Assembly (NCBI GenBank): GCA_031315865.1 | Contig: JALDRJ010000002.1 | Location: 1,834,001-1,898,000 of the forward strand | Length of the DNA: 64,000 nucleotides | Source: Nitrospirales bacterium | GTDB lineage: Bacteria; Nitrospirota; Nitrospiria; Nitrospirales; UBA8639 | Direction: 5' to 3' | In this document: in pieces, positions 15,389 through 63,132 of the stretch | Layout of the letters: every line of letters starts with the position of its first letter | Numbering within the stretch: the stretch's first letter is position 1 | The notes under the pieces: model-generated | What the model saw: only the letters and a program-made list of their open reading frames with translations | The model's database searches: none | What the model was told of the DNA's origin: nothing | Program-made: the position numbers and the translations under genes

Positions 15389-15772
15389 GCATACGTGTTG
15401 GCGCCTGAGAGCATGACCGTCCCCGTCCCTGTTTTCGTCAGCGCACCGGTTCCGCTGAGTACGCCCGTATAGGTGCCAGACCCCGCTTGATCAAACGTCA
15501 CCATCGCGTTGTTCGTGATATCCCCTTGCAGCGAGGTCGTCGTTCCCCGCAGTGTGCCGGCGCTCACCGTGGTGCCGCCGGTGAAGGTGTTGGCGCCTGA
15601 GAGTGTGATCGTCCCCGTTCCCGTTTTCGTCAGCGCACCGGTTCCGCTGAGGATGCCCGCATAGGTGCCAGACCCCGCCTGGTCAAACGTCACCGTCGCG
15701 TTGTTCGTGATATCCCCTTGCAGCGAGGTCGTCGTTCCCCGCAGTGTGCCGGCGCTCACGGTGGTGCCGCCG
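15389..15772 (-). repeat. Two 192-bp (64-codon) tandem units, type A
   Basis: Units starting at about 15389 and 15581 are nearly identical and lead into a third start at 15773. Each encodes GTTTSLQGDITNNATVTFDQAGSGTYAGILSGTG-type sequence in frame with the autotransporter. Nucleotide identity between units is high enough to imply recent duplication. Confidence 0.8.
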
Positions 15773-37483: not shown

Positions 37484-38620
37484 CTAGTGAGCCGCGATGG
37501 TGGTTCGATCGAAGTTGGCCAGCCTGTCTAAGCCTACTTGTTTAAGTAAGGAGGCGCGTTGCTCCAGAAACGCAGGATTTTTCGGGTCTGAACGAATCAA
37601 TTCGGAAAGGGCCCAGAACGCGTCATACCAAAGGCCGGCATGAGCATACAGAAGAGGAGCTTCGGGCGAGGGGGGCTGTTGGGCCAAGGTCATGGGTAGC
37701 GAAGAAGTATTCTCCACTCGCTTGATGAACCCGCTCGCTTTCATGGAATTCTGTGGGGTATCGGCTAAAAGGGACACTTCCCACTGGTAGGCCACGTTTG
37801 CTAACAGTCGAATACCATAGTCTTCAAGGGACACCGAATGGACTCCAGCTTCCATGGGAGGCAACAAGCGCATGTCAAATACGACCTCGACCGCTCCCAG
37901 TTCTGTGAGTATCACGTCAATAGGATGCTCAATTGGCTCCGAGAGATGCCAGAAAAGACGGGGTTGTTCGTGGATCGTCTGCCCCAGATGATTTGGTGCG
38001 TAGACCGAAAGCAGGCTGAAGTCATCCTGGGGTATAAATAGAGAATCGGTCTGTTCTTGCAGGTCGGTCGTGGACGGAGCCTGGTAGGCCAGAGCCGGTT
38101 TCTCAAGAGCCGGCGACGGTGTTTTTCGAATCATCGGCTTCTCCACGGAGGGTAATGCAATTTCCGCGGCTGTACCTGGTTTTGAAGCAGGTGGAGTCGT
38201 TGTTGGAGCCAGGGCAATGTGTGGCATTGTTGGCGGGGGAGGCGCTTTAGTCGAGCCCACGGCCTCAAGTTTTTGCCCACCAGGGAGCAGCAAAGTAATA
38301 AAGAATTTCCCTTGCTTCGACGGCCGAGTCATCGCCATTGGGGAGAAAAGCTCATATTGTTCATGGGTTAAGGCCTCGGCATGCAGGACGATATCCATTT
38401 GTTGTCCCTCTCGTGTCAACCGTAACTCAGAATCTCCGGCGGGCTCGACAAAGTATTTTCCCGGCTCCAACGTAATGGGATGGCCATTCGGATCGCTAAA
38501 GTGTAAGGCTCGACTGAGCACGATATTTGGCTGACTGGCCCATGCGCTTTGGAACGCGAATACCAGAAGACAGAACAGGCTTATTCTGAAAAGAAATTGG
38601 CTATTTCCCGTTCGATACAT
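37484..38620 (-). CDS. Exported protein with the recurrent ~100-residue module and a DUF928-like C-terminal domain
   Basis: A 378-residue secreted protein. After a signal peptide (SLFCLLVFAFQSAWA), residues about 32-125 form one copy of a module shared with three other proteins in this window (HFSDPNGHPITLEPGKYFVE, HAEALTHEQ, TLLLPGGQKLEAVGS). A Pro/Ala-rich linker follows, then a domain (FWHLSEPIEHPIDVILTE, GVHSVSLE, YQWEVSLLAD) that resembles DUF928 of cyanobacterial exported proteins. The C-terminal helical segment (YAHAGLWYDAFWALSELI) is TPR-like. Function unknown; likely periplasmic or surface. It is divergent from the tandem lipoprotein genes. Confidence 0.75.
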   Translation of the reverse strand: MYRTGNSQFLFRISLFCLLVFAFQSAWASQPNIVLSRALHFSDPNGHPITLEPGKYFVEPAGDSELRLTREGQQMDIVLHAEALTHEQYELFSPMAMTRPSKQGKFFITLLLPGGQKLEAVGSTKAPPPPTMPHIALAPTTTPPASKPGTAAEIALPSVEKPMIRKTPSPALEKPALAYQAPSTTDLQEQTDSLFIPQDDFSLLSVYAPNHLGQTIHEQPRLFWHLSEPIEHPIDVILTELGAVEVVFDMRLLPPMEAGVHSVSLEDYGIRLLANVAYQWEVSLLADTPQNSMKASGFIKRVENTSSLPMTLAQQPPSPEAPLLYAHAGLWYDAFWALSELIRSDPKNPAFLEQRASLLKQVGLDRLANFDRTTIAAH

Positions 38621-39141
38621 GGTTGCCTCCGAATCTCACGCTCTTTAGAGAAGTCGATAGGGGCTTTTCAGCCGGTACGCAAAGAGTTTTCTATTCTAAT
38701 ACTAATAACCAGTCTTACACCACCATTCGAACAAGTAGTTGTCTGGCGTGAACCAGGTAGCAGTGATCCTGAGGAGAATATCCTGGGAAAGAAGCTTTAT
38801 GGTGGGTGTTGAAAACGGCCCACTATGCTGAGCCGGAGAGACAAGTGCTATGGGAAGAATCATGGAAGCTTGATAAGCAGAATGTCCCCTTTTTGTGCAA
38901 GTCAAGACCCTCGTAGTATGATGATCCGCTTGTGGCCCCATGAACCTTATTGATAGCTAGGACGACTCATCTGTTATGGAGCAGAAATCCCAGGTTCAGG
39001 TGTCAGGTGACACGGGGAATATATCTGTCACTTCTCGTGGGTTGCTTCATCAGCGCGCGCACGAGCAATCATGCCATACACATTCCAGTCCTACGTGAGA
39101 AACCGGTTGTACCGCAAGCAACCAGAGGGGAGAATGACAAG
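38621..39141. other. Divergent intergenic region
   Basis: A 521-bp gap between two divergent genes carrying the recurrent module. A possible plus-strand promoter is TTGTGC (38893-38898), an 18-base spacer and TATGAT (38917-38922), some 220 bp before the lipoprotein ATG. The reading frame of that lipoprotein stays open back to 38950, but there is no signal for an earlier start. Nothing else was recognised. Confidence 0.35.
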
Positions 39142-40368
39142 ATGAGAAAACAACAAAAATACCAATGGTTGATGCCGGTCGTATTGATGATGGTTGGTCT
39201 GTATGGATGCACGTCGGCTCAGATAACCGAGGGAGAGATAGAGGCTGATGCCAGGCCGGCAGAGTTTGAGCAAGTGATCGAATTGGACAAAACCGTATAT
39301 TTTCAATCACCGAACGGGGAACCTGTGATGGTGGTTCCAGGGACCTATGCCGTAGAAGCGGCAGATGATGTACTGAAACTCACATCAAGTTCAGAAGCTA
39401 ACGGAAAACCGGTGACGATTCATGCTGAGGCGGCGACCCATGAAGAGTCAATCGCTGATTCCGAGTCTCTTTCAATGAGTGGCGAAGACGATGATCATCT
39501 CGTGACGTTGCTTAAACCGGATGGGAAGGTCTTACAGGCGACCGGGTCCTATAGTGGAGTGACAATGAGGGGCAAGAAAGAAGCGAAACGTTTTAATTTT
39601 GATTTCAAGGGGCTCTTAAAAGTCATCCCCAAGATTCAAGGTATTTTTACTTCACCGAAATTTGGCGCCATTACGCCGGGTGGAAATCTTTACCTCAAAG
39701 GTAAACAATTTGGGAAATCGAAGGGAACGCTTGTTCTGAGCGTGAAAAATCGATTTGACAAAGTCCAAAAATATCCTCTCACGGTAGAGAGCTGGAGTGA
39801 TACGAAGATCAAAGCTAAGATTCCGAGTCGTATTTCGGAGATTCCAGATCATAACGCCAGTTTTGTCCTGAAAACCTCGCAAGGCATTTCTCATAAAGCC
39901 TGGACTGTCAATTTCTACGCAACTCGGAAGATTCATGTCCTGAAACGTAATGATGCCGTCGTGCGGGTAAAAACCTGCTCACGTGGGGCAGATCACAATA
40001 ATTGCAACGGGGCCAGTTATAGTGATCAAGGAGCATGCACGTTTAGCCACCCTCATCTCCGAACAGATGCGACGTACACGATCATGCATCTCAACTGTGA
40101 TGCCGTCATTGATTGGGATGATGGGACCGATATTTTGGAAGTCAAACTCAAAAATGGATGGGTGATCGACAAGATCGATATTTCAGGAGGCGGGAGCAGT
40201 CCGAGTGAAAAACTGAGACTTCCAACGCAGGAAGAATTGAAACGGTCGACGTATGACACGTCCGTTTGGAGACAAAACGTTAGCTGGGAAGTCAGTCCTG
40301 GGAAAGATTATGTGCTCTATAGTTTTTGGGTCAAAATCAAGGGACCTGAGGGGGTTCCGTATAAGTAA
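39142..40368 (+). CDS. Lipoprotein: recurrent module, IPT/TIG domain, Cys-containing C-terminal domain
   Basis: A 408-residue lipoprotein with lipobox LYGC. Residues about 42-145 are one copy of the recurrent module (VYFQSPNGEPVMVVPGTYAVE, HAEAATHEE, LVTLLKPDGKVLQATGSYSG). An IPT/TIG-like Ig domain follows (GAITPGGNLYLKGKQFG, VESWSDTKIKAKIP). A C-terminal domain has four cysteines (CSRGADHNNCNG, GACTFSH, LNCDAV), probably two disulfides, with LEVKLKNGWVIDKIDI. AGGGGAGA precedes ATG 39142. The next gene is a diverged tandem duplicate, 48 bp downstream. A surface adhesin or matrix protein is plausible; no enzyme motif was seen. Confidence 0.8.
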   Translation: MRKQQKYQWLMPVVLMMVGLYGCTSAQITEGEIEADARPAEFEQVIELDKTVYFQSPNGEPVMVVPGTYAVEAADDVLKLTSSSEANGKPVTIHAEAATHEESIADSESLSMSGEDDDHLVTLLKPDGKVLQATGSYSGVTMRGKKEAKRFNFDFKGLLKVIPKIQGIFTSPKFGAITPGGNLYLKGKQFGKSKGTLVLSVKNRFDKVQKYPLTVESWSDTKIKAKIPSRISEIPDHNASFVLKTSQGISHKAWTVNFYATRKIHVLKRNDAVVRVKTCSRGADHNNCNGASYSDQGACTFSHPHLRTDATYTIMHLNCDAVIDWDDGTDILEVKLKNGWVIDKIDISGGGSSPSEKLRLPTQEELKRSTYDTSVWRQNVSWEVSPGKDYVLYSFWVKIKGPEGVPYK

Positions 40369-40416
40369 GGGAGATCGGTGAAAAGGCGTGATCAAAATTT
40401 CTGGAGGGGGAGAGTC

Positions 40417-41637
40417 ATGAAATATTCGAATAATTGGTTAGCCGTTGGAATTGTGGGATTCGTCTGGGTAATTTCTGCCTGTTCATCAATGAACATCAAA
40501 GGAGATATAGGGGAGAATGACGCCGGGCCAGTGGAAATGGAGAGCGTTGTGGAGATCGAAAAACCCATGCACTTTCTGACGGCAAGCGAGGAAGATGTCA
40601 TGATTTCCATGGGTACCTATACCGTTGAGGCGGATGAGGAGACTCTTCGTTTAACGTCGAGTGATCAGGAAGGCGTCCGCCCGATTACACTTCAAGTCGA
40701 GACGTTTGTTCATCAAGAACCGATCCATGTCGCTGAACCGCGGTCCATTTGGCTCAATGAGGACACGCAAGTGATTATGATGCTTATGCCTGGAGGAAAG
40801 GGGCTGCAAGCAACCGGATCGTCTAGTGGCGTTCAGGCTCGAGGGGCAAAGAATTTCAAGCTCACCCCAGGCTTTCTCAAAGATTTAAACCTGCCGACGG
40901 TCAACGCAATCTTCACCACCCCGAAGTTAGGAGCACTCACGCCCGGAGGGACTCTGTATATCAAAGGGACGCAATTTGGTGAGAAGGGGGCTAAGTCAAA
41001 GGTTGTTTTGCATTTTACGCATCCGAACGAGCACCAGAGGACTCTACAGATTAAAAACTGGAGCGATACGAAAATTACGGTCCAAGTGCCTGGCGATATT
41101 TCTGGAGTGGCGGATCACAAGGTGAAATTTCAAGTGCAAAATGCGAAGGGAGTGGGAGGACTGGCCAGAAAAGTCCCATTCTATGCGTCACGAAGAACCA
41201 AGCTTCTCAAACAGGATGATCCAGCGGTCCATGTTGTTCATTGCTCAACGGGTGCTGATAAAAATTTTTGCAATGCACTTAACACCAGTACGGGAGGCAG
41301 TTGTTTCTCGAGTTCAGTCAAGAGTTTCCGGGAGGGGAGCACGATCTATGGGCGTCACGTCAATTGCGATACGGCCGTTGATACGGATGGAGGAACTGAC
41401 CGGTATGCGGTGACGTTGAAGAACGGGTGGGTGTTTAAAAAGGTCGAGTATTCCTATAAAAAGAGTTCAGGCAGTGAAAAAATTATTCCTCCCGACTATG
41501 GGAAACTCCGTAAAACGCTCCCTGGAACATCGTCGTTCAACCCCAACATTAAGTGGGAAGTGAGCCCAGGGCCAGATCAGCTCGAATATGTGTACTGGCT
41601 CACGATTGAAGGACCCAACGGGATTCCGCATTATTAA
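40417..41637 (+). CDS. Lipoprotein, tandem paralogue of the preceding gene
   Basis: A 406-residue lipoprotein (lipobox ISAC) with the same three-part layout: recurrent module (MGTYTVEADEETLRLTSS, LMPGGKGLQATGSSSGV), IPT/TIG domain (GALTPGGTLYIKGTQFG, KNWSDTKITVQVP) and a Cys-containing C-terminal domain (CSTGADKNFCNA, GSCFSS, VNCDTAV, YAVTLKNGWVFKKVEY). The module has lost the usual PNG turn (TASEED instead). ATG 40417 is preceded by GGAGGGGGAGAG; a GTG at 40378 is less likely. A GC-rich hairpin follows 7 bp after the stop. Confidence 0.8.
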   Translation: MKYSNNWLAVGIVGFVWVISACSSMNIKGDIGENDAGPVEMESVVEIEKPMHFLTASEEDVMISMGTYTVEADEETLRLTSSDQEGVRPITLQVETFVHQEPIHVAEPRSIWLNEDTQVIMMLMPGGKGLQATGSSSGVQARGAKNFKLTPGFLKDLNLPTVNAIFTTPKLGALTPGGTLYIKGTQFGEKGAKSKVVLHFTHPNEHQRTLQIKNWSDTKITVQVPGDISGVADHKVKFQVQNAKGVGGLARKVPFYASRRTKLLKQDDPAVHVVHCSTGADKNFCNALNTSTGGSCFSSSVKSFREGSTIYGRHVNCDTAVDTDGGTDRYAVTLKNGWVFKKVEYSYKKSSGSEKIIPPDYGKLRKTLPGTSSFNPNIKWEVSPGPDQLEYVYWLTIEGPNGIPHY

Positions 41638-41644
41638 ACGGCGA

Positions 41645-41674
41645 TGCGGTGGGCATTTGGCCGAGCCCACCGCA
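41645..41674 (+). terminator. Hairpin after the tandem lipoprotein genes
   Basis: TGCGGTGGGC and GCCCACCGCA form a perfect 10-bp GC-rich stem with a 10-base loop, 7 bp after the stop at 41637. There is no T tract, so it is a weaker intrinsic terminator candidate. Confidence 0.55.
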
Positions 41675-41996
41675 CGATATGGGGAAGATGGGCTTTCGGC
41701 TTTTTGATCAACTTACTCCTTTCCGTCTCGTGCGCACGTCCTTGTGCGGTGAAGGGATTTTCCTTCGTTTGCAGTGGTATCCCTACATATGTATTGGGGG
41801 ACTTCTTGTTCCTTTGCAGAGATGCTGTCCCTAAATTATTGATCTTCTTTCTATTTCTGCCATTCCATTCAATGGATTTCAAAGGGAACACGATTTGCTT
41901 TTTGTTCTTTTGAACGCTAATTCCGGGTAAGGCATTTCGAAGTCTTTACATGCATACATGATTGATGACCCTTTCCGTTAACCAGGAGGTGTTCTG
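41675..41996. other. Intergenic region
   Basis: A 322-bp gap. Open frames on both strands here are low-complexity and hydrophobic without ribosome sites, and I do not accept them as genes. The promoter of the small exported protein should lie here, but no convincing -35/-10 pair was found. Confidence 0.4.
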
Positions 41997-42248
41997 ATGA
42001 TGTCTCGTATACTTTCTCACGGTATAGCTGTCGCTATTCTGATTACGTTTATGTTCGTGCCAGCATCTGTTTTCGCCGGAAGCGCCGCTGAGGCGATGAA
42101 TAAATTGAAAGAGCAAACGAACATAAAGACTGAGTCGTCGTCGGTCAAGGCTAGTGCGTCACGTGCGGATGCTGAAGCTGCTGATGCGAAGGCCAAGGCG
42201 AAAAAGGCCGTCAAGGAATTATTAAAAAAAAGGAAAGAAACTCAGTAA
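41997..42248 (+). CDS. Small exported coiled-coil protein
   Basis: An 83-residue protein with a signal peptide (AVAILITFMFVPASVFA) and a mature part of about 55 residues rich in Ala, Lys and Glu (ASRADAEAADAKAKAKKAV), predicted to be helical. A strong AGGAGG lies about 8 bases before the tandem ATG codons at 41997 and 42000. Family not recognised; small alanine- and lysine-rich periplasmic helices of this kind can bind the cell wall or nucleic acids, but that is speculation. Confidence 0.75.
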   Translation: MMSRILSHGIAVAILITFMFVPASVFAGSAAEAMNKLKEQTNIKTESSSVKASASRADAEAADAKAKAKKAVKELLKKRKETQ

Positions 42249-42507
42249 TGAGTCTTAACAAAAGGCCAGGCTTCTGTGACACAGCGTCAGGGTTAGTCTT
42301 GCACTCCCATTGCATACCCCGCTAATTCTGTTGCAAGAACGGGCTCAACCGTATGGATGCGGCTGAGTCCGTTTGCTTGCTGGTTCACATACCTGTTTAT
42401 CCCTTCTAGGCATCCTCCTGTCTCCCTGATATCTGCCGTTCTCCTTCCCCAAAACATTCCAGAGCGTTTTAATATCCCTTTGTATAGATTGCCCGATGTC
42501 TGACGGC

Positions 42508-42693
42508 TATAGCTGCTCCAGTGATACCAAAACGATGCCGTGCGCTCTTGCAGGCCTAGGCTCTGCAAGACGTGAGGGAAACATCCATGTGTGTCAGGAC
42601 AGCCAAGTGGGTATCACCTTCCGCTTGAGGCAACGTCCTACTGCGCGGGGGGTGTCGTTTGTATCGACTGGAACGTATTTGGATTCGTTATAG
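42508..42693 (+). repeat. Dispersed 186-bp repeat, copy B
   Basis: Gap-free partner of copy A (37240-37425, opposite strand), about 81% identical. Its ends CTATAGC and GTTATAG can pair over 7 positions with one G-U wobble where copy A has G-C. It also contains an internal perfect 7-bp hairpin CTTGCAG/CTGCAAG. It lies 147 bp upstream of the glycosyltransferase ATG in the same relative orientation as copy A to its downstream gene. Confidence 0.8.
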
Positions 42694-42840
42694 AGAGCGC
42701 ACGACTGTGTGGGGTTGAACCATGATGATATTTGGGGTGTCGATGTGCGAAGATATGCCACCTCCACCGGTATAGCCCATGACGAATGGTCCGGACTCTA
42801 TGGTCCTTATGAGTCGAATCTTGAATTGCGACCGCACGAA

Positions 42841-43644
42841 ATGACACAAGAGTTCTCCAAGCCAATCCTTTCCGTCATTATCCCTGTGTTTAATGAGCGG
42901 GACACGATAGAGGAATTGCTCCGGCGAGTCTTGTCGGTTGAGCTCCAGGACGTGAGAAAGGAGATCATCATCGTTGATGACGGATCGGCGGATGGGACCA
43001 CAGCATGGCTGCGTCATCAGGTGAGTGCGCCGGAGACCAAACGCGGCCTTGATTGGCGTTCGCACTGCGGAAATGCTGTTACGGACAGTCTGAAGATCGT
43101 CTTTCACGAGGCCAATCAAGGGAAAGGTTCCGCTTTACGTTCGGGGTTTGGGCAGGCGAGCGGCGACATTCTTCTCATTCAGGATGCGGACCTTGAATAC
43201 GATCCCAAAGACTATGATGCTCTTCTCCGCCCCATCATCGATGACGAGGCTGATGTCGTCTATGGATCCCGATTCCTCAGCCCTGACGAGCCGGCTTGGT
43301 CTCAGTTTGGATATTTTGGGAATAAGGTTATTACGGCTTTGTCCAATCGATTGACGGGGTTGTCGTTAACAGATGTCTGGACGGGGTATAAAGTGTTCAA
43401 GCGACCCGTGATTCAACAGATGACGTTGCTGGAATCAGGATTTGAATTAGAGCTGGAAATTACCAGCAAAGTGGCGCATGGACAGTGGCGTATCCGTGAA
43501 GTGCCGATCTCGTACAGTCCTCGTAGTCGAGAAGAAGGGAAGAAAATAACCTGGCAAGACGGGATCAAAGCCATTCGAGCCATGGTGCGATATCGTCATG
43601 ACCTGAATCAGGTTCGGTCAGAGATCATGCAAAAAACTCACTGA
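42841..43644 (+). CDS. Family 2 glycosyltransferase (DPM1-like)
   Basis: A 267-residue GT-A glycosyltransferase. The N terminus has SVIIPVFNERDTIEELLRR, then IIIVDDGSADGTT, the metal-binding segment LIQDADLEYDP and GSRF, the pattern of dolichyl/undecaprenyl-phosphate sugar synthases. There is no C-terminal membrane segment, so it would act as a peripheral enzyme. TWLR-type insertions after the first DDG motif (residues about 60-85) make it slightly longer than usual. Start ATG 42841 is preferred although the ribosome site is weak; an in-frame GTG at 42709 would add 44 unrelated residues. Confidence 0.9.
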   Translation: MTQEFSKPILSVIIPVFNERDTIEELLRRVLSVELQDVRKEIIIVDDGSADGTTAWLRHQVSAPETKRGLDWRSHCGNAVTDSLKIVFHEANQGKGSALRSGFGQASGDILLIQDADLEYDPKDYDALLRPIIDDEADVVYGSRFLSPDEPAWSQFGYFGNKVITALSNRLTGLSLTDVWTGYKVFKRPVIQQMTLLESGFELELEITSKVAHGQWRIREVPISYSPRSREEGKKITWQDGIKAIRAMVRYRHDLNQVRSEIMQKTH

Positions 43645-43760
43645 CAGCCAGGATGTGTGAATTGGTTTGAGAAACCTGTGTGTTGAGGTTGTATGCGTTC
43701 TGCCGGGAGCATGCGTCACGACCAAATCTTCCGAACGGCTCTTATCCTGCGAAGAAATGA

Positions 43761-43799
43761 CATGCGGGCCTTCTTTCTTCCTGAAATAAGACCCGCATG
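43761..43799. terminator. Terminator-like hairpin between convergent genes
   Basis: CATGCGGG (43761-43768) and CCCGCATG (43792-43799) form an 8-bp stem with a 23-base loop; ATACTTTTTGCC follows on the plus strand. It lies between the glycosyltransferase (+) and the membrane-anchored protein (-). Confidence 0.5.
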
Positions 43800-43829
43800 A
43801 TACTTTTTGCCTTTCTTCCCCCAATATAA

Positions 43830-44729
43830 TTATTGAAGGTCTTCGTATTCGGGAGCCGCGCCCTCAACTGGTAGTTCGACTTCCCCGAGTTCCATGTCTT
43901 GCATGGCATCCGAGGCTCCACCTGGGTCAATCCCCCGGGGACGAATTTTCCCCTTGAGACCTTTCAGCATTTCTGGCTTGACTTTGAGACTTGGGAGGAT
44001 CATTTGCCCCGGTTTTTCCCCAGGAATCGGCTTCAGCGCTCCTGTTTTTTGGATGGTGGCTTTGAACTCCTGTAATGGCTCTCCCTTGAATTGAAGCCCG
44101 AGCCGGTTTTGGACGATCGGACTGATCTTATTGTCCTTTCCGATGCGAAATCTGGTGCTTGGATTGACCAGGGATTTTGTGTCCACTCGTCGCCCTTTCA
44201 CCTTCACGGTGGGGCCGTTTCTCAAGAACATCATGTATCGTTCACCCTTTTTGTATTTCACGTCGTCATGAATGTTGATGGTGTTGGCGTTAAAGGGTGT
44301 GGCACGCTTGGGTGGGTTTGTGGCCCCTTTGGGTTTGGGGGGGGCCTGGCTCATCGGGGGCATCTCACGGTTACTCACCGGGATTCCGGCTGTCCGGAAT
44401 ACCTGAACCTCCTGGGCAGGTTTTCCTTTCAGAGTTCCTTGGACTTTCATCGTGACGACTTCGATCGCGATCCGTTCGACGCCTCCCGGCTCACCCGGCG
44501 CCTTCACGACTAGGTCATCGGCCCGCTCTACGTTCGTCACTTCGGCTTCCACGACTTCTTGGGCCAGGCCTTTTGCTTCGACCATAGTACGGGGATCATA
44601 GGCCCAAGCCGCAAAGACTGTCGGCTTCGGCTTGTTAAACCAGTATTCGTAGCCCACTTGTCCCACGAACGCGACGAGCAAGACGGCAATGAGCCCTTGC
44701 AAGCATTGATGTGTTTTCTTGGATGTCAT
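43830..44729 (-). CDS. Membrane-anchored periplasmic protein of unknown function
   Basis: A 299-residue protein with one N-terminal transmembrane helix (GLIAVLLVAFVGQVGYEYWF) and the rest outside the cytoplasm. The central part has GTLKGKPAQEVQVFRTAG and KKGERYMMFLRNGP, a pattern seen in exported domains beside matrixin-like proteases, and the region about 110-140 is Pro-rich. I do not recognise a named family. It is 59 bp downstream of the matrixin-like gene on the same strand, so the two likely work together, perhaps as protease and anchor or inhibitor; this is inferred from position only. Confidence 0.7.
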   Translation of the reverse strand: MTSKKTHQCLQGLIAVLLVAFVGQVGYEYWFNKPKPTVFAAWAYDPRTMVEAKGLAQEVVEAEVTNVERADDLVVKAPGEPGGVERIAIEVVTMKVQGTLKGKPAQEVQVFRTAGIPVSNREMPPMSQAPPKPKGATNPPKRATPFNANTINIHDDVKYKKGERYMMFLRNGPTVKVKGRRVDTKSLVNPSTRFRIGKDNKISPIVQNRLGLQFKGEPLQEFKATIQKTGALKPIPGEKPGQMILPSLKVKPEMLKGLKGKIRPRGIDPGGASDAMQDMELGEVELPVEGAAPEYEDLQ

Positions 44730-44788
44730 GTGACGGTTCTCCTTCAGAAATTGAGACAACAAGTCGAATGTGTGAATGACACAATCCG

Positions 44789-45316
44789 CTAATACATCGA
44801 GTTGATGTCAGACCAATTGTGACTATTACTCACATTGCTGCTCGGGCTGTAATAGCCCTTCGCCATGCAGCCATTCGTATTGCTATGGTCTAATCCGAAG
44901 GTGTGTCCAACTTCTTGACAGAACACGCCCTGCGCATTGCTATTCGAATATCCGTAGTAGGAATTGTATTGCGCGTGAGCATGCTTAATTCGGCACCAAC
45001 ACCACTTATGCCACCAATCGAACTCATACGACTTGATCGAAGCCAGTCCGGCCCAGCCTGTTGCACCGGAATTTTGTCCAAAAACACTGATGTCAGTGTG
45101 CGAAGACTTGGTTGGTAGGCTAAGATCGGTATGGGAATCCCAATCCTGTACCGAGGCTTTCGCTTGTGTCTGATGACTTCCCCAGTAATACATGCCGAGT
45201 GTCCGCTTGTCCCAATGCCAGCTTCCCCACTGGTGGGCATCAAGCACTTGGGCATTGAGTGTAAGCAATCCCAGGGCGACCAAAACATACGCCGCCGTTA
45301 AAATTTTCCCTCGCAT
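44789..45316 (-). CDS. Exported matrixin-like protein with altered zinc motif
   Basis: About 175 residues with a signal peptide (VLVALGLLTLNAQVLDA). The C-terminal region has CQEVGHTFGLDHSN followed by NGCM, which matches the metzincin HExxHxxGxxH plus Met-turn layout except that the first zinc-binding His is Gln. Cys-rich and aromatic segments precede it (FDWWHKWCWCRIKHAHAQ). The length suggests a minimal protease domain without a propeptide. Activity is uncertain because one of three His ligands is missing. A perfect AAAGGAGG precedes ATG 45316. It is first in an operon with the membrane-anchored protein. Confidence 0.75.
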   Translation of the reverse strand: MRGKILTAAYVLVALGLLTLNAQVLDAHQWGSWHWDKRTLGMYYWGSHQTQAKASVQDWDSHTDLSLPTKSSHTDISVFGQNSGATGWAGLASIKSYEFDWWHKWCWCRIKHAHAQYNSYYGYSNSNAQGVFCQEVGHTFGLDHSNTNGCMAKGYYSPSSNVSNSHNWSDINSMY

Positions 45317-45488
45317 GTGCAACCTCCTTTAGGGTGTGTGTGAAACGCCATCTGTCCTATTCAGGCGTTTCAAGAATGACTTCATGCCTCCTGTCCCTGG
45401 AACGTATTCCGTCCATTGCTAAAAGGGCCATGACCTTTTTCCCCCTTCCTTTCCTTCCTTCTAGGCCTCCCTTCTAGGTCACGTGATT

Positions 45489-45968
45489 TTATGGTTCACC
45501 GGCTATCTGCGGGCCCAACAAGGTCCCGAGTGTTTTTAGGACTGTTTGGTCTGAGCCGATATAGAGCACCAGGATTTTCCCATTTTGATAAAAGTGCGTT
45601 GGCCCGACCCACCCCACGATCGTATCGTCGATGGCCTTGCCGTCAGGAGAGATGCTGTGTGCCTGCGTTTGCGCAGCAGAAGACGAAGCATACTCAAAGA
45701 CCTGAATATCTTGACCGTTTACTCGTAAAATCTGGCCTGGAACAGCGAAGAAAGGTTGAGAAATCGATCCGGTTGGCGAAACTGTAAGGCCCTGCGCTCG
45801 AAGATTATCGACGAGACTCACGTGATCCTGGGCCGGTCCTCCATGCGAGTTGACCGGCGACTCGGCCCCGTTACAGCTTAAGAGAGTCAACGTCACGACC
45901 GTGGCGAAGACTGTAGCCATCACACCCTGGCGAAGCGAACATCCAAAGCAGATCAGGTCATTCTTCAT
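45489..45968 (-). CDS. Small lipoprotein of unknown function
   Basis: About 159 residues. A hydrophobic segment ends in a lipobox (LTLLSC), followed by a mature part with an SLVDNLRAQGLTV start and a small beta-rich domain (ILRVNGQDIQVFEYAS, then WVGPTHFYQNGKILVLYIG). Similar short exported proteins occur widely without known role. GGAGG lies upstream of ATG 45968; a GTG one codon earlier is possible. A good minus-strand promoter is at 46019-46047. Confidence 0.7.
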   Translation of the reverse strand: MKNDLICFGCSLRQGVMATVFATVVTLTLLSCNGAESPVNSHGGPAQDHVSLVDNLRAQGLTVSPTGSISQPFFAVPGQILRVNGQDIQVFEYASSSAAQTQAHSISPDGKAIDDTIVGWVGPTHFYQNGKILVLYIGSDQTVLKTLGTLLGPQIAGEP

Positions 45969-46018
45969 CACGCATACCTCCCCATGGTCATGACCGCACA
46001 GGTTGGCAAGGGGCCGTG

Positions 46019-46047
46019 ATTGTAAGATATCTCACAAAAAAATCCAA
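46019..46047 (-). promoter_or_regulatory. Sigma-70-type promoter of the small lipoprotein gene
   Basis: On the minus strand TTGGAT (46047-46042), a 17-base spacer and TACAAT (46024-46019) lie about 50 bases before the start codon. The spacing is optimal and both hexamers are close to consensus. Confidence 0.5.
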
Positions 46048-46213
46048 CATTGTACTGGGTAATCTGCATGAAACTTTTCCGTCTCACGTTGACAATATTC
46101 AACAATTTCAATTAGTTAAGTGAATTATGACATTATGTTCTGTAGAGTGAGTCGTACCGTGGAGTTCGACGGTTCATAGATTTTGTAAAAATTTTCGGAT
46201 TTTTGTCGGGGGG

Positions 46214-47887
46214 TTAGCAGCGCGAGTCGGTTGTGAGGAGCGAGAAAATTTTGACCTGCGGGTCTTCATACAACGGCTTGCTCAACGGCGAGAACGTCTG
46301 GAGTTGTGGCTCGTGGTCGCGTGCCCAGTGACGATCGATGATGATGGTATCGACATGGAGTTCCTGAATGAGAAAACAAAGAAGATGAGTAGTTGGAAAA
46401 TGTCGAGCCATGTCTAACTGAAAATTCGAATAGCCGGGTGGAAAGTAACCGGAATAGCCATTCGCAAGACGTTTGCGATGCTGAACCTGTGCGAGCATTC
46501 GGACTGTTTCGAACTCATAGTCGGAAACATGCTGTCCGCCGGGAAAGGGGACATGTGCGACGACGCGTCGTGATCCCTGTTCTCGCAACCACGAGACCCA
46601 TTCTTGCTGTTCAACGCGCGGAAAAGAGTGAAGAGGCTGGGGGATGGCCAGGTTTTCCAGAACAGCCAACAAGCCAACAACGCTGAGAACGAGAACGCTC
46701 TTGAACGGAGTCTGTACGTGCCAAAGCTTCCATAATCCAAAGGCGCTGAATACGCACAGACTCATCTGAAACAGAATGGCGAACCGGAATGGACTGCGAA
46801 ACTCATGATATCCAGGAATGACTGTCCGCAAGGTGTTGAATGGCTGCCACCCGCCGATCGACAGATTCAATCCGAACGAAAGGACCACGCTTGCCCCACC
46901 GACGACAAGAAAATACATGACCCATCGTCGTTGTTTCGTCGCTCGAAGACCGTACACGATTCCCAATCCGCTCAATGTCAGCACACAGAAACCGGGGAAA
47001 AGTCCGCCGGTATCGCCATCATGCTCTTCACGAGGAGGGAATCCAATAAGAGCAGTTCGGGGTCGTGTGACGTAATCTCCAGGCAGAGCCGAGAGAGCCT
47101 GTACGACTTGGTCCGTGCGTGTGAAGCCTTGATTCTGGTGGATCTGTAGTGGACCCCATGCAAACCCCACGCAGGCAAGTATGGTTACCAGGCCGACGCC
47201 GCTTAGTGTGATGACTGCCTTCTGAGAACATTGTCGTTGATGCAGCGCGATAATTCCGGCTAGCAAGGCAAAAGGCGCAAAGAGCAACATCAACTGTTGT
47301 GATGACAAGAATTGCCCCGTGATCCCTAACCCCGCCCAGATTGCGCTCTGGATGGAACCTTCTTTTCCGAACCACACGAATCCTTCGAGCGCCCACAGTA
47401 TTCCGAACAATGGGATCAACGGGAGGACGCCCAACAGCTTCGCGGTCACAGGCATCCCGATCACCAATATTCCACAGAACAGAGAAGGTGAAAAAGGCAT
47501 ATCCAGGCTCCTGGCCAGTCGATAGGCGCACAGTCCGTTCAAGAACAGGCAGAGCAGAAGAGTGATGTTGTATACCGTGGCCGACGAGTCGGTGAGCCAC
47601 CATACCGGGATGGACAAGATTCCCGTGAAAAGTTGAGGCTCAGAGAATGAAAACGTGCCAGGTGACGGGTGAAAAATCGGGGCATCCCAATACCCGGGGA
47701 AGCCGTTCATGGCCTGGGTAGCGTTCCACCAGAGTGTCCAGAGATTGAGAAGGGGCACGGTTAATTCATGTTCTGTTCCGATGGGAAGCGCGTCACTGAG
47801 GTGCCAGACGAGTGGCCAAGTGATAGCGACAGTGGTCAGTGCGAGAACGATGAAGGCAACGACGAAGCGCCGGAAGTCTGTGATGTT
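46214..47887 (-). CDS. Multipass membrane protein, GT-C/YfhO-like
   Basis: A 557-residue protein with about 11 predicted transmembrane helices and a C-terminal extracytoplasmic part (about residues 440-557: RVVAHVPFPGGQ, then GYSGYFPPGYSNF). The first loop (WHLSDALPIGTEHEL, then LNLWTLWWNATQ) resembles GT-C type membrane glycosyltransferases and YfhO-like proteins that act on lipid-linked sugars, but no catalytic Asp motif is secure. The start is uncertain: ATG codons at 47887, 47950 and 48013 are all possible. No partner gene is evident; the neighbouring genes are exported proteins. Confidence 0.7.
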   Translation of the reverse strand, partial: NITDFRRFVVAFIVLALTTVAITWPLVWHLSDALPIGTEHELTVPLLNLWTLWWNATQAMNGFPGYWDAPIFHPSPGTFSFSEPQLFTGILSIPVWWLTDSSATVYNITLLLCLFLNGLCAYRLARSLDMPFSPSLFCGILVIGMPVTAKLLGVLPLIPLFGILWALEGFVWFGKEGSIQSAIWAGLGITGQFLSSQQLMLLFAPFALLAGIIALHQRQCSQKAVITLSGVGLVTILACVGFAWGPLQIHQNQGFTRTDQVVQALSALPGDYVTRPRTALIGFPPREEHDGDTGGLFPGFCVLTLSGLGIVYGLRATKQRRWVMYFLVVGGASVVLSFGLNLSIGGWQPFNTLRTVIPGYHEFRSPFRFAILFQMSLCVFSAFGLWKLWHVQTPFKSVLVLSVVGLLAVLENLAIPQPLHSFPRVEQQEWVSWLREQGSRRVVAHVPFPGGQHVSDYEFETVRMLAQVQHRKRLANGYSGYFPPGYSNFQLDMARHFPTTHLLCFLIQELHVDTIIIDRHWARDHEPQLQTFSPLSKPLYEDPQVKIFSLLTTDSRC

Positions 47888-48168
47888 CATATCGCGCGCG
47901 GGAATAGAGTGTCTTCTCGATGAACCTTGCATCGTCAATCGTCGACTCATCGCATAAGGTTCATACATCAGGCATTGTAGCCTATACCTCACGGCGATGT
48001 ATGGATTGACCATGTGAACATGGCGAAGGCTTAGAGGGGGATCTCAGGAAGCCCAGGTCATGTTGACGGTGGCGGAAGATGAGGGACTCCAGAGCGGGTC
48101 CCTCAGCCACTTGGGTATGCCACGCTGCGTCCGCTCGCTTTTTCAACTCGCCTACGAATTCTATTGAG

Positions 48169-48768
48169 CTAGGGAATGGAAACGATGGTTTGATGCTCGG
48201 TGATCCGAACCTTCTGAATGCCAGATGTGTCTTGTGTACTGAAAATCATCAATCCCGTGTGTTCTCTGACACGTTGAAGAAGATAGGAGACTTCCTGATT
48301 GGCGTAGCGATCATGCGCATCTGTCACCGCTGTTCGTTTGCCAAACAGCGCGTCGGCTTCATCGAAAAAGAGGATGGCTTTCTGCGCTTTGGCTCTGCGG
48401 AAAAACGAATCGATATTCTTCTCCGTTTCTCCGATGTAGCGGCTTACCACTCTTCTGATATCTATCTTTACGAGCGGGCGCTGCAACTCGAGAGCGAGGG
48501 CTGCTGCCGCTTCTAGTTTTTCCTTTTGACGGGGTCCCGCAAAGACGAGCGTTTGCGGGGGAGGTTGTTTCCTGACCTTCCGAGCAAGCTTTTCGAGCTG
48601 CGTTCGTGTTTCAGGAGGTACGTTAAGCTTTTCAATGGGCTGTCCTTGGCCGGTGGCGTGGGGCAATGAAGCGCGGGGACGTGTCAATCGTTCTTTGCCG
48701 ATCGCGAAATCGGTACATGCCAGGATCATCAAGGCACCGAGTAGAAACAGGTAGGTTCGAGCTGTCAT
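48169..48768 (-). CDS. Exported AAA-like protein with broken Walker A
   Basis: A 199-residue protein with an N-terminal signal peptide (LFLLGALMILACTDFAIG) followed by a truncated AAA domain. It closely follows the AAA type seen next to contractile injection systems: VVSRYIGETEKNIDSFF, FFDEADALFGKRTAV, HDRYANQEVSYLLQR. Walker B is intact, but Walker A reads GPRQKEKL in place of GPPGTGKT, keeping only the Lys; sensor 1 is STQD instead of ATN; and the lid with arginine finger is absent. An exported AAA domain cannot use cytosolic ATP, so it is probably a scaffold or binding domain. It lies 82 bp downstream of the module protein at 48851-50650. Confidence 0.75.
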   Translation of the reverse strand: MTARTYLFLLGALMILACTDFAIGKERLTRPRASLPHATGQGQPIEKLNVPPETRTQLEKLARKVRKQPPPQTLVFAGPRQKEKLEAAAALALELQRPLVKIDIRRVVSRYIGETEKNIDSFFRRAKAQKAILFFDEADALFGKRTAVTDAHDRYANQEVSYLLQRVREHTGLMIFSTQDTSGIQKVRITEHQTIVSIP

Positions 48769-48795
48769 GACGAGCCTTTATACGACAGAGGTTGC

Positions 48796-48822
48796 GGCCT
48801 GCCCCCTGTGCACGGGCAGGCC
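48796..48822. terminator. Hairpin between two minus-strand genes
   Basis: GGCCTGCCC and GGGCAGGCC form a perfect 9-bp GC-rich stem with a 9-base loop, 29 bp after the upstream gene's stop. Without a U tract it may be a weak terminator or a processing element that sets the ratio of the two messages. Confidence 0.45.
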
Positions 48823-48850
48823 TTACGGGTGAGGTTCTTCGAAACGTTTC

Positions 48851-50650
48851 TTACTTTTTACTCAAGCGAATGCCGCCCCCGATTTTCAGCGCGATATCCG
48901 CGGGCAGAGCGTTTTTCCCTCCTCCGAAGCTCACGCCAAACCCCTGGAAGTGATCGAGGAAGAACTTGGCGGATGTGAGGTTCCACTTGAGTTTAAACGG
49001 TTTTTGTATTTCGAGTGGAAAGTCAAAGTAAAAATCGAGGCCGCCTCCGGTATTTTGGGGAACTTTGGGAAGCGGAAAGCTGACACCGGCTCCCAAAAAC
49101 CATCCACCGGTCTGCACGGGGTCTTTACGGGGAAAGATTCCCAGTTGTACGCCCCCACCCCCACCCACATTAGTTTTTACCATGCCAGCCAAGTCAAGAA
49201 ACCAGTGTGATTGATTCACGAAGTCAAACGCAAACCGGACTCCGATTTCTCCTCCACCGACCTTGGCCGCGTTTCCTCCCAAGGCCAGCGTCGCAGAGGC
49301 AAACGACCCTCGAGATCGGACCTGAGATCCATTCCCGGAGTTCACGACGGCCAATGCCTGGCGGATTGGCCCCCCGATCATGTTTTTAAATGTGTTTTGC
49401 ACGGTCTGAGCCGGTTTGTCGCACATTCTGTCGGGATCCATGAGCTGTTTCACCGCTCGCGTATTCTTCGGATTCGATAGGATCTGTGCGGCTTCTATCA
49501 CACGTTGGATCGACGCGGCCTGCTGTTGTTTAATCGTCTCGATCGCGTCGAGAAGGGCTTTCTGAGCTTTGGGGAGTTGAAGGGCTTTGGCGAGTTGTTT
49601 TTTGAGCGGATCGAGAATCATGGCCTTGGCTTTAGCCACAGCTTGCGTCGTTTTGAGCGCGACTTTGCAGGCTCCGATGGCTGTCTGTTGCGCAAGATAT
49701 TTTGCTTTTTCCGCTGCGTCTTTGGCGGCTTTTTCTGCTGCGCGTTTAGCTTGTAAGGCTGCCTGGTTCACGTCTTTGCCGACTTTTTGCGCCGTTCGTC
49801 CCAAATTTTTGCCTGTTTTTCTGACCGTGCTGTGGGCTTGTTTATACGTCTTGTTGACTTGTTTTTTAGCTTTCTGGAACGTCTTGTCCAGCCAACCACG
49901 AGGTTGAATGCCGCTATACGATCCCGTGGCTTCCAGGGTCTGTCCGTTGGGGAGCATGAGCATGAGATAATGTCGGTCCGATTCTTGTTCTGTAGAACCG
50001 GGAAGAGACAGCGCGATCAGTTCGTCAAGTTCAGCATCGTTTGTCCCTTTCTGCGCTTCGATCAGGAGTGCGTCGTGTCGTTCGCTCCCGGGAATCAAGC
50101 GAATCCAGTCTTGCGCGTCTTCGGCCGTATAGTCTCCTGCTTCCACGATGACGGGACTGCCGTCCGGGGCGGTAAAGTACACGGCTTTGTCGAATGTGAC
50201 GGTGTTAGGGCTTCCTGAAAGCGGCATGTCCTGAGGAATGGCCCGGCTTTGGATGCCTGGGTATGTGCCTACAGCCTGCCACACCTGTCCGTTCGGTAAG
50301 AACAGCATGATGATATGGGTATTGGCTAAGGGGCCTTCCTGTCCAGGAACTGACACGGCGGTCGGCGTGGAGATTTCAGATGTATGAGATGTCTCATCTG
50401 CTTCGAGCGTCGTGGAGGTTTTTGAGAGCGTGTTGGTGAGTTGAAGGGCGTTTTCTTCTTTCGTCACCATGTAGTTTCCAGGTTCGACGAGGGTCTCTTC
50501 TCCCTGGAAGTCTTCGAATTGCACGGTTTTTCCCAAGGAGATGAAATTGGCTGCGTCCTCAGGCACTGCGGCGTGGATCGTTGAGACGAAGCTGAGCAGT
50601 CCAAGAACTGCGGCATGAGTGAATGTGTTCATGAATCGAGGGAATCGCAT
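48851..50650 (-). CDS. Exported protein with two tandem recurrent modules, helical middle and beta-rich C terminus
   Basis: A 599-residue protein with a signal peptide (AAVLGLLSFVSTIHA). Two copies of the recurrent ~100-residue module lie in tandem at about residues 34-137 (VQFEDFQGEETLVEPGNYMV, LFLPNGQVWQAVGTYPGI) and 149-252 (VYFTAPDGSPVIVEAGDYTA, LMLPNGQTLEATGSYSGI). A long Ala/Lys-rich helix follows (about 255-410), then a Gly-rich, beta-strand C terminus (GGGGGVQLGIFPRKD, WFLGAGVSFPLPKV) that could be a small barrel or membrane-associated sheet. AGGAG precedes ATG 50650. The exported AAA-like gene follows in the same direction. Function unknown. Confidence 0.75.
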   Translation of the reverse strand: MRFPRFMNTFTHAAVLGLLSFVSTIHAAVPEDAANFISLGKTVQFEDFQGEETLVEPGNYMVTKEENALQLTNTLSKTSTTLEADETSHTSEISTPTAVSVPGQEGPLANTHIIMLFLPNGQVWQAVGTYPGIQSRAIPQDMPLSGSPNTVTFDKAVYFTAPDGSPVIVEAGDYTAEDAQDWIRLIPGSERHDALLIEAQKGTNDAELDELIALSLPGSTEQESDRHYLMLMLPNGQTLEATGSYSGIQPRGWLDKTFQKAKKQVNKTYKQAHSTVRKTGKNLGRTAQKVGKDVNQAALQAKRAAEKAAKDAAEKAKYLAQQTAIGACKVALKTTQAVAKAKAMILDPLKKQLAKALQLPKAQKALLDAIETIKQQQAASIQRVIEAAQILSNPKNTRAVKQLMDPDRMCDKPAQTVQNTFKNMIGGPIRQALAVVNSGNGSQVRSRGSFASATLALGGNAAKVGGGEIGVRFAFDFVNQSHWFLDLAGMVKTNVGGGGGVQLGIFPRKDPVQTGGWFLGAGVSFPLPKVPQNTGGGLDFYFDFPLEIQKPFKLKWNLTSAKFFLDHFQGFGVSFGGGKNALPADIALKIGGGIRLSKK

Positions 50651-59910: not shown

Positions 59911-61866
59911 TTACTCGGCATGGGGTTCAGCCTCCTTCGCAAAGATCCCGGGGAAAGCCGCTCGAAGGTCAGGGACCAAGGGAATCAGTTTGTCCTGCAT
60001 CCCGGCCTTCAGCAAACACTCCGCATAATTATTCAAGACCGTTTTGGTGTTGGGATGGGCGAGCCCCAATCGGGCTTTAAAAATTGTATAGGCGCGCTGG
60101 TAGAGGGGCTCGGCCTCGGCGTACTGGCCTTGTGAGTCATATAAGGCCGCCAGGTTGTTGAGGCGGATGGCGACTGACGGATGCTCAGAGCCCAGTGCGG
60201 CTTCGGATATGCGTAGGGCGCGCTGGTAGAGGGGCTCGGCCTCGGCGTACTGGCCTTGCGCCCGATAGAGTTCCGCCAGGTTGTTGAGGCTGGTAGCTAC
60301 TTGCGGGTGTTCGGTTCCCAAGGCCTGCTCATTGATGGCTAAGGCGCGCTGGTAGAGGGGCTCGGCCTCGGCGTACTGGCCTTGTGAGTCATATAAGGCC
60401 GCCAGGTTGTTGAGGCTGACGGCCAGGTCGGGGTCGTTGGGTTCCAGCGTGTTTTCGCGAATAGCCAAGGCTTCGGTGAAGTAGGGAAGGGCTTGTTCGT
60501 AGCGCCCGGCCCGGGCCCAGGCCTGTCCCAATTCATTGAGGCGCGTCGGGTCTTTGGTGGGCCGCAGGGCGACATGCTTTTGATACCATGGCAGGGCTTC
60601 TTTGTAGTTGCCACGGAAGGTTTCATTCCTGCCCCGTGCCAGGTAAATCTTGGCGAGTTTCTCTTCATGGTCGGCTTCAAGGTTCGTGGCTTGCGCGAAC
60701 AACGTGCCGGCTTCTTTAAGGCGGCCTTCAGCTTGGGCCTTGATGCCCTGGGCGTAGGGGTCGTCCTTGTTGGGGATGAGTCGCGTGGCCAGGCGTTGGG
60801 CTTCCTGTGGAATTTCGGGTTCCTGTTGCCCATCTGTGGTGACGATGGACGTGGTGGGCACCAGATTACGTTCGAGCGCGGCCAGTTGCAGCGCTTGTCT
60901 GGCTGACGATTCCCATCGCCGCACCTTGGTCCGGTCGTAGGCCAGGATGACTTCCTCGTGACGGCCGCCCACCAATTGGGGATGCATGTGTACGCGCGCT
61001 CCATTGACGGTGAGCCGGCCGGCGAGCGACCACTGTTTGAGTTGATTCGAGGTATAGGTATGGACTTCCCCGAAGCGTAAAACGCCGTCCCCATTGTCAT
61101 CGGCTGTGCGCCACTCTTCGCCTAAGGCTTGCAGTAGTGTCTGGGTGAAGGCGCTCAGTTTGGTGCCGTTTTCGAGCGTGATCGCGATGGAGTTTTGCGT
61201 CGTAGAGCTTGACGTGAGAATCGTGGTCTTGGAGCCCAGCTCTTTTAACGTCAAGGCTCCAGAAAACGCGCCTGTCCCGCTGAAGCAGGCGTCGATGATC
61301 AGATGCAGCTCACCGAAGTATTTCTTATCGCCTCGGGCTGCCTCAATCAGATCTGACACCTTTATCCCCTTGCTGTAGTCCAAAGAGGATTGTCCGGCGA
61401 GTTGTAGCGACACATCCTTGTCGTTGGGACTGGCCACTCCATGACCGCTGTAGTAGATGACGACTGACGCCCATTCCCCTAGCTCGCGGATTTGTTCTAG
61501 CGTTGTTGTGAGGTTATCACGGGTGGCAATGGGTCCGACGATTGGCTTTTGGACCAGCGGGCGGTACCCCAGAGTGTCGAACTGTTTGGCGACTAACGCG
61601 GCATCGGTGAGCGTGAAGGGAAGCTTGGCTCCCGGCACGTCCCGTTGGTCGACGGCTACGATGAGATAGTATTTGGCCTTTTCGTTCCAGACTTGGAGAG
61701 GGCCGTCTTCCTCTTCTGGTATGGGGCCGGTGGAGGCCATGGCCGCCGGTGCCAGGAAGCTGAAGAGCAGGGCCACTCCCCATGCGAGCCGGGTCCATAA
61801 GAGGCGGGCCTGCCGGTTCCCGGGAGCGCGGGGAGTGCCGGGAGTGGTTGGAGCGTGCGCGATCAT
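59911..61866 (-). CDS. Exported caspase-like (C14) protein with TPR repeats
   Basis: A 651-residue protein. An N-terminal hydrophobic segment (LAWGVALLFSFLAPAAMA) predicts export. Residues about 65-300 are a caspase/metacaspase-like domain with the catalytic His142 in YYSGHG and Cys194 in IIDACFSG. A DxNxDGxLxxxE loop at 256-267 (DDNGDGVLRFGE) fits an EF-hand-like calcium site. The C-terminal half is a TPR array with a 42-residue period (YAEAEPLYQRALAI and LNNLAALYDSQGQ), almost identical at DNA level in three units. It is probably a periplasmic or surface peptidase or scaffold acting with the neighbouring DUF4384 lipoproteins; activity is inferred from the intact dyad. Confidence 0.88.
   Translation of the reverse strand: MIAHAPTTPGTPRAPGNRQARLLWTRLAWGVALLFSFLAPAAMASTGPIPEEEDGPLQVWNEKAKYYLIVAVDQRDVPGAKLPFTLTDAALVAKQFDTLGYRPLVQKPIVGPIATRDNLTTTLEQIRELGEWASVVIYYSGHGVASPNDKDVSLQLAGQSSLDYSKGIKVSDLIEAARGDKKYFGELHLIIDACFSGTGAFSGALTLKELGSKTTILTSSSTTQNSIAITLENGTKLSAFTQTLLQALGEEWRTADDNGDGVLRFGEVHTYTSNQLKQWSLAGRLTVNGARVHMHPQLVGGRHEEVILAYDRTKVRRWESSARQALQLAALERNLVPTTSIVTTDGQQEPEIPQEAQRLATRLIPNKDDPYAQGIKAQAEGRLKEAGTLFAQATNLEADHEEKLAKIYLARGRNETFRGNYKEALPWYQKHVALRPTKDPTRLNELGQAWARAGRYEQALPYFTEALAIRENTLEPNDPDLAVSLNNLAALYDSQGQYAEAEPLYQRALAINEQALGTEHPQVATSLNNLAELYRAQGQYAEAEPLYQRALRISEAALGSEHPSVAIRLNNLAALYDSQGQYAEAEPLYQRAYTIFKARLGLAHPNTKTVLNNYAECLLKAGMQDKLIPLVPDLRAAFPGIFAKEAEPHAE
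60091..60468 (-). repeat. Three 126-bp tandem repeats within the TPR array
   Basis: Units begin at 60091, 60217 and 60343, exactly 126 bp (42 codons) apart, with long stretches of identical bases encoding YAEAEPLYQRA. Near identity at synonymous sites implies recent duplication or gene conversion. Confidence 0.85.
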
Positions 61867-63086: not shown

Positions 63087-63132
63087 GATCAATCTTCTCG
63101 GTGGTTCTCTGAGATTCATGAATACGGCGGGC

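Follow-up and report, generated by a model that had tools for sequence, protein, structure and literature searches.

A recurrent ~100-residue exported beta-domain of Nitrospirales with a terminal arginine motif: a predicted detachable prodomain with caspase-like proteases encoded nearby

Caspase homologues are widespread in bacteria, where their natural substrates are mostly unknown and where they are usually discussed as cell-death factors. In LPXTG and PEP-CTERM sorting, a common short signal is carried by unrelated exported proteins and a dedicated cysteine protease is encoded nearby. Earlier surveys reported many prokaryotic proteins of the caspase family C14 with probable signal peptides and WD40 repeats, with a high frequency in Nitrospirae (PMC3501461). 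Metacaspases and paracaspases cleave after Arg or Lys by means of S1 Asp/Glu residues (PMC4357240), the consensus of the paracaspase MALT1 being phi-X-[P/S]-R'-[G/A] (PMC6125328), and in the Porphyromonas fimbrial lipoproteins Mfa4 and FimA an N-terminal region is removed after Arg by Arg-gingipain (PMC4789730). The present analysis concerns a stretch of 64,000 nucleotides (the window) of a Nitrospirales bacterium (assembly GCA_031315865.1, contig JALDRJ010000002.1, positions 1,834,001 to 1,898,000), in which four open reading frames (ORFs) contain five copies of an exported module of ~100 residues. On balance, we lean towards regarding this module as a detachable prodomain of exported proteins, which would be cut after Arg by exported caspase-like proteases encoded nearby.

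All five copies, which had been described in the initial annotation, were found again on re-examination, far above chance by profile search. They align across ~105 columns with the described motifs included, and residues F14, G27, Y29, L41, P86, G88, A93 and G95 are invariant among them. The copies (with hmmsearch independent E-values, iE) and the predicted cleavage motifs of the same proteins (arrows mark the predicted scissile bonds) are as follows:

38246-38524 (minus strand): module copy of the DUF928 fusion protein encoded at 37484-38620 (iE 3.1e-30, with alignment)
39274-39573 (plus strand): module copy of the lipoprotein-like protein encoded at 39142-40368, which consists of the module, a TIG-like domain and a Cys-containing C-terminal region (iE 3e-35)
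39559-39573 (plus strand): predicted cleavage motif V-T-M-R↓G at the end of the preceding copy
40546-40845 (plus strand): module copy of the lipoprotein-like protein encoded at 40417-41637 (iE 3e-32)
40831-40845 (plus strand): predicted cleavage motif V-Q-A-R↓G at the end of the preceding copy
50240-50545 (minus strand): first tandem module copy of the protein encoded at 48851-50650 (iE 3.6e-31)
50240-50254 (minus strand): predicted cleavage motif I-Q-S-R↓A at the end of the first tandem copy
49895-50203 (minus strand): second tandem module copy of the same protein (iE 2.3e-35)
49895-49909 (minus strand): predicted cleavage motif I-Q-P-R↓G at the end of the second tandem copy
49307-49321 (minus strand): third motif, V-R-S-R↓G, of the same protein, between its helical region and its beta-rich C-terminus

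The DUF928 domain of the first protein was found outside the module (residues 202-369, E 3.3e-27, 95.9 bits with a gathering cut-off of 26), and its module ends in GSTKAPPPP, without a terminal Arg. The IPT/TIG matches of the two lipoprotein-like proteins lie below the gathering cut-off of 20.9 bits (E 0.018 and 15.5 bits in 39142-40368; E 4.5e-4 and 20.6 bits in 40417-41637). In the orthologue of the tandem-module protein at locus L020 (loci and genomes are given by our own L and G numbers), VRSRG is located at the identical domain boundary.

A profile built from the five copies identified nine more in the home genome (each with E = 1e-10 or better, the best 8e-29), giving a total of 14, all of them within 1.788-1.905 Mb (120 kb) and including two more clusters beyond the window (L017/L061 and L018/L064). 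Across the cluster loci of Nitrospirales, at least 60 copies were found in 53 distinct proteins; the five copies first described were thus real, but the family had been under-counted. A profile scan of genome contigs gave no conserved stretch, and a single-protein scan gave one locus. Within Nitrospirales the module is patchy and clustered, being present in 38 of 236 genomes. A sample of 396 genomes from the phylum contained 19 module-positive genomes, all Nitrospirales, and none outside this order, other phyla having had no systematic search. The statement that the module always stands directly behind an export signal holds, by gene and signal-peptide calls made with crude scripts, for 48 of the 53 proteins, in which it is N-terminal (a lipobox-like sequence precedes it in 17 proteins), but in five it is internal or close to the C-terminus. 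The partner domains are diverse, as had been proposed, and include DUF928, TIG-like, PAN, collagen, FG-GAP, CARDB, DUF11, peptidase S74 (chaperone) and cytochrome-like domains.

The proposal that the module is unnamed was also borne out, as neither profile searches nor structure prediction matched the module confidently to any named domain. Scans of whole proteins and of 43 members against Pfam-A and NCBIfam gave no match with a credible score; among the 43 members the best Pfam E was 0.011 (in two members) and the best NCBIfam E was 0.0022 (in one member, to an unrelated reductase). Searching the module profile against PDB sequences gave nothing below E = 0.1. AlphaFold, run on 43 sequences, predicted a ten-strand all-beta domain with a mean predicted local distance difference test (pLDDT) score of 91.3, which was low only in the final residues. 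Foldseek searches with this model found nothing at E <= 0.001 in PDB or BFVD; a PDB fold match was taken as a significant Foldseek E together with a template modelling (TM) score above 0.5, and the best E in PDB was 0.013, with TM scores of 0.17-0.36 among the matches listed. A named domain is therefore rejected on the searches of Pfam, NCBIfam, PDB sequences and Foldseek, and the module is confirmed as an undescribed ~100-residue exported beta-domain that is reused on many partner proteins in Nitrospirales. Other candidate origins and affiliations were rejected: no plasmid match was found, the sole viral match covered 33 residues and was not recovered by the module profile, and PADLOC gave a generic caspase match on the C14 proteins and weak coiled-coil/repeat matches, with none on the module.

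The module copies were found to end in [GS]-S-x-[SG]-G-[VIL]-x-[SPT]-R-[GASD]. The final L-P..S-G-V pattern of the initial annotation is present, but its conserved continuation x-[SPT]-R-[GA] had been overlooked and turned out to tell the most about the module; no function had been proposed there, and neither the terminal Arg motif nor the association with C14 proteases was part of it. Of 57 distinct copies, 55 carry the Arg and the others are DUF928 fusions; its column is at least 90% conserved. In the AlphaFold model the Arg is located behind the last structured strand, in a flexible low-confidence tail (pLDDT 53). The motif [VI]-x-[SPT]-Arg-[GA] fits the published consensus of MALT1, itself a C14 protease. 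Elsewhere in the module proteins, [VILMF].SR[GA] occurs 10 times vs 1.9 expected, the bare SRG being weakly enriched and [SAPT]RG not enriched. As the motif depends on the hydrophobic residue at P4, its definition was revised accordingly and tested anew on held-out loci.

Similar sites were found in exported neighbours which lack the module. The N-terminal type follows a signal peptide and a stretch of 10-60 often acidic residues (for example GE/DD-VQERG-V, VTERA-V, IETRG and VESRG). The C-terminal type lies ~20 residues before the C-terminus, ahead of a hydrophilic, acidic tail of mostly 14-33 residues (for example IMRRG-VEGE, VLSRG-VEGE and IRPRG-ID). The window contains one such protein:

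43830-44762 (minus strand): exported protein without the module, bearing a C-terminal-type motif (no Pfam family; from the translation)
43932-43946 (minus strand): its motif I-R-P-R↓G, ahead of an acidic tail of 33 residues

After 40% redundancy removal, [VI]..R[GA] was found in 50 of 94 exported neighbours and in 21 of 114 background proteins (p 1.3e-7), and the strict MALT1 motif in 24 of 94 vs 6 of 114 (p 3e-5); the backgrounds are sampled genome stretches, largely from the same genomes. Control patterns with Lys for Arg, in reversed order or with an acidic P4 gave p values of 0.16-0.95 in this comparison. Because the motif was first spotted by eye, only the test on held-out clusters, which were unread before the motif was defined, is clean. 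There, the N-terminal type occurred at 23 sites vs 2.0 expected (background 1 vs 2.9) and the C-terminal type at 12 sites vs 0.09 expected (background 0). Among the 25 held-out proteins without a homologue in the discovery set, six N-terminal-type sites were found vs 0.54 expected.

Genes for C14 proteases were found near modules in all nine genomes analysed for them, with 19 of 58 located within 15 kb of a module copy vs 0.99 expected; in the home genome the figure is three of five. One architecture (WD40-C14) comprises a signal peptide, WD40 repeats, CARDB-like and SH3-like domains, a coiled coil and the C14 domain, with 1031-1177 residues in the copies examined, and its gene lies 2-12 kb from the closest module copy in eight of the nine genomes. 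WD40-C14 was found in 25 of 236 genomes and the module in 24 of these 25 (Fisher 5e-22), and nine of ten genera with WD40-C14 have the module (p 8e-7), P values which are optimistic through relatedness. Where a single module copy stands in a genome that lacks WD40-C14, the terminal Arg site has mostly been lost: it is missing in G352, G353 and G354, which form one lineage, and in G369, with GVRSP (loci L113, L114, L117 and L111), but G233, G310 and G323 retain it. Conversely, in G214, where WD40-C14 is present and the module absent, the neighbours still bear VQERG, IQERA, IRPRG and similar sites.

The WD40-C14 proteins match Pfam C14, have metacaspases as their closest PDB relatives and conserve the catalytic His (YAGHG) and Cys (DSC). 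A modest AlphaFold model (pLDDT 62.5) matched metacaspases and MALT1 with a Foldseek probability of 1.00. Arg/Lys-specific C14B enzymes are recognised by cleavage after Arg and by acidic S1 residues, namely an ND motif and an Asp ahead of the catalytic Cys region; the putative S1 Asp residues of WD40-C14 align with those of metacaspases. In eight of nine homologues, I/V-x-x-R-G was found in the variable linker behind the WD40 part. A second type, C14-DUF4384, is encoded alongside a sigma factor, an anti-sigma factor and DUF4384 lipoproteins. The window holds a C14 protein with TPR repeats, which is a nearby candidate for the processing enzyme, and part of a cluster of the second kind which runs on beyond the window (L018 = L064):

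59911-61866 (minus strand): exported C14 caspase-like peptidase with TPR repeats (Pfam C14 E 2.4e-10; His in SGHG, Cys in DACFSG)
62007-63119 (minus strand): DUF4384 lipoprotein of the sigma / anti-sigma / C14 / DUF4384 cluster (Pfam E 7e-12; conserved neighbour)

In the zf-HC2 anti-sigma factors (L064:684-1403 and homologues in L020, L049 and L052), phi-x-x-R-G-[IL] is found just outside the membrane helix in four of four, and is kept although the flanking sequence varies. Situated beside sigma factor, C14 and DUF4384 genes, this site could possibly allow a protease-triggered release of the sigma factor.

In the proposed scheme, the precursors would be exported by Sec, the module standing behind a Sec or lipoprotein signal and being anchored by lipid in some family members. 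The module may hold or shield the C-terminal domain, while its flexible tail would present [VI]-x-[SPT]-Arg↓[Gly/Ala] to an exported metacaspase- or paracaspase-like C14 protease from the same chromosomal neighbourhood. Cleavage after Arg would detach the N-terminal module and release or mature the C-terminal part, an effector or structural domain. Judging from the partner types, the products would be surface and matrix proteins, and their maturation or release may be the purpose of the process. The same enzymes might trim the acidic, Pro-rich N-propeptides of other cluster proteins at [VI]-x-[EQDST]-R↓[GA] and their acidic C-terminal tails at [VI]-x-[RPS]-R↓G-[VI]-[ED], and may cut the local anti-sigma factor on its periplasmic side. 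More tentatively, and with less confidence than in the prodomain itself, the caspase-family enzymes of Nitrospirales might be dedicated exported convertases, for which phi-x-x-R↓G/A (after a beta prodomain, in an N-propeptide or before an acidic C-tail) would mark dozens of surface and matrix proteins; the protease might also trim itself between WD40 and the rest and cut the anti-sigma factor, coupling export and processing to transcription.

Several observations weigh against the prodomain scheme, which is built on sequence, with cleavage as a prediction. The DUF928 fusions keep the module without its Arg. WD40-C14 is absent from 14 module-bearing genomes. Most of these are incomplete or hold a single copy; G085 (eight copies) and G323 (five copies) are exceptions, although the clusters of G085 contain further C14 genes. 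Among held-out neighbours, the strict MALT1 motif was not more frequent than in shuffles (12 vs 10.4), P2 being mostly Glu or Gln there, so that the likeness to MALT1, as judged from the motifs, is closest at module ends and looser in other proteins. The motif was noticed after inspection, which makes the discovery-set statistics post hoc, and the P values overstate independence because genomes and clusters are related.

The module could instead be an uncleaved surface domain for binding or assembly (to cell wall, polysaccharide or partner subunits), in which the Arg forms part of the fold or of a binding surface and the C14 genes are adjacent for other reasons. Binding modules, too, typically occur in tandem and with a variety of C-terminal partners, the Arg is missing from the DUF928 fusions although their fold is retained, and cleavage is so far only predicted. 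We nevertheless consider this unlikely, since the Arg sits in a predicted disordered tail, the motif also occurs at N- or C-terminal boundaries of unrelated neighbours without the module, and it is lost in lone copies when WD40-C14 is missing. If the motif is a real processing site, a different Arg protease might cut it, such as a trypsin-family cluster protein or a general periplasmic protease. A trypsin-family protein is indeed present in the clusters of several family-f2 genomes (G088, G187, G320 and G237), a point against the C14 enzymes, and weak Trypsin_2 matches lie near modules in G153 and G147. On the other hand, no homologue of this protein was found in the fetched stretches of the home genome, G355, G115 and G151, whereas all nine genomes have C14 genes close to modules; S8 subtilases lay within 25 kb of a module in none of 13 cases, and DegP-type Trypsin_2 lay near a module in four of 95 cases, all four being the special trypsin-like gene. 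Moreover, the residue six before its catalytic Ser reads as Ser rather than the Asp of trypsin, and Ser in S1 predicts no Arg preference. The trypsin-family proteins (L054:13131-14621, L056:1213-2682, L132 and L137) carry both N-type (VQERA) and C-type (SRG-[IV]E) motifs, and a protein so flanked resembles a zymogen substrate with removable ends. Cleavage by such another protease appears quite improbable.

Cleavage might also trigger the polymerisation of surface fibres, as with Arg-gingipain and the fimbrilins of Bacteroidales, where N-terminal removal opens a beta-domain for donor-strand exchange. The Mfa4/FimA pathway (PMC4789730) likewise combines lipoprotein precursors, an N-terminal beta domain, an Arg site and a clan CD protease, and partners of the trimeric needle, collagen and S74 types suggest fibres. 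This appears very improbable, given that an entire folded domain would be removed and not one strand, and that such varied partner domains do not fit a single pilin; no match to the C25 gingipains was found in nine genomes, the control genomes being equally without one. The prodomain scheme therefore remains the one that we favour.

Several other features of the clusters and the window were observed. Module clusters repeatedly contain Sec-exported coiled-coil proteins that include a trimeric needle region like that of phage gp5/VgrG, and two of these proteins have VTERA or IQERA directly behind the signal peptide; such needles are normally parts of cytoplasmic contractile-tail machines. The needle-type proteins are:

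L061:14495-15106: home copy (Gp5_trimer_C E 1e-10)
L139:8298-8882: needle-type protein
L088:11993-12574: needle-type protein
L128:17731-18396: needle-type protein
L083:6473-7306: needle-type protein

DsbA-like thioredoxins with a 'IRAHPEVIEQSL' N-terminal segment are also recurrent neighbours (L046-L058, eight genes in seven genomes), consistent with the Cys-rich exported proteins in these loci. Adjoining the tandem-module gene, positions 48169-48768 encode a small protein of the AAA type (Pfam AAA E 2.7e-14). It has a lipobox-like signal peptide and an intact DEAD box but a degenerate Walker A (GPRQKEKL), which points to an exported pseudo-ATPase; no homologues of it were found in the cluster loci examined. 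An exported matrixin-like metalloprotease fragment with the motif HTFGLDH is located at 44789-45322 on the minus strand (Pfam M10 E 1e-4, just under the cut-off). Autotransporter-like repeat ORFs at 13696-20699 on the minus strand have a Gly-rich head, repeated 'GTLTLSGANTYSG' units and a barrel-like C-terminal part, and are broken into several ORFs, as if by frameshifts within the repeat tract.

The finding provides a testable list of substrates with predicted scissile bonds and likely enzymes adjacent, in nitrifying bacteria which are important to the nitrogen cycle, and adds a domain family without a recognised fold relative. If correct, it would give caspase-family proteases a housekeeping convertase role in the bacterial envelope. 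A search of the open-access literature found no described C14 substrate set of this kind, and the results suggest a protein-maturation pathway not reported before.

In comparison with known systems, LPXTG and PEP-CTERM sorting share with the present clusters a short signal on unrelated exported proteins and a nearby cysteine protease. They differ in that the signal here closes an N-terminal domain, forms part of an N-propeptide or precedes a C-tail; the hydrophobic helix and basic tail which follow sortase- or exosortase-type signals are absent, the tails being hydrophilic and acidic, and there is no sign of transpeptidation. Bacterial WD40 metacaspases and orthocaspases have the same C14 domain and His-Cys dyad, WD40 being the commonest partner domain, while the discussion in PMC3501461, in the parts available, centres on cell death and describes no tagged exported substrate set. 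The gingipain-type and MALT1 systems are parallels, and membership in neither is claimed. Like the fimbrilins, the module proteins are exported, at least partly lipid-anchored precursors, the N-terminal part of which would be cut after Arg by a clan CD cysteine protease; the difference is that theirs is a C25 enzyme in a different taxon, acting on a short strand-forming extension, and here it would be a C14 enzyme acting on a stand-alone domain found on many partners. MALT1 (C14B) is eukaryotic, intracellular and involved in signalling, in contrast to an exported bacterial enzyme with exported substrates, and P2 is often Glu, Gln or Asp in the non-module substrates predicted here, but its enzyme domain belongs to the same family and its substrate consensus coincides with the module ends.

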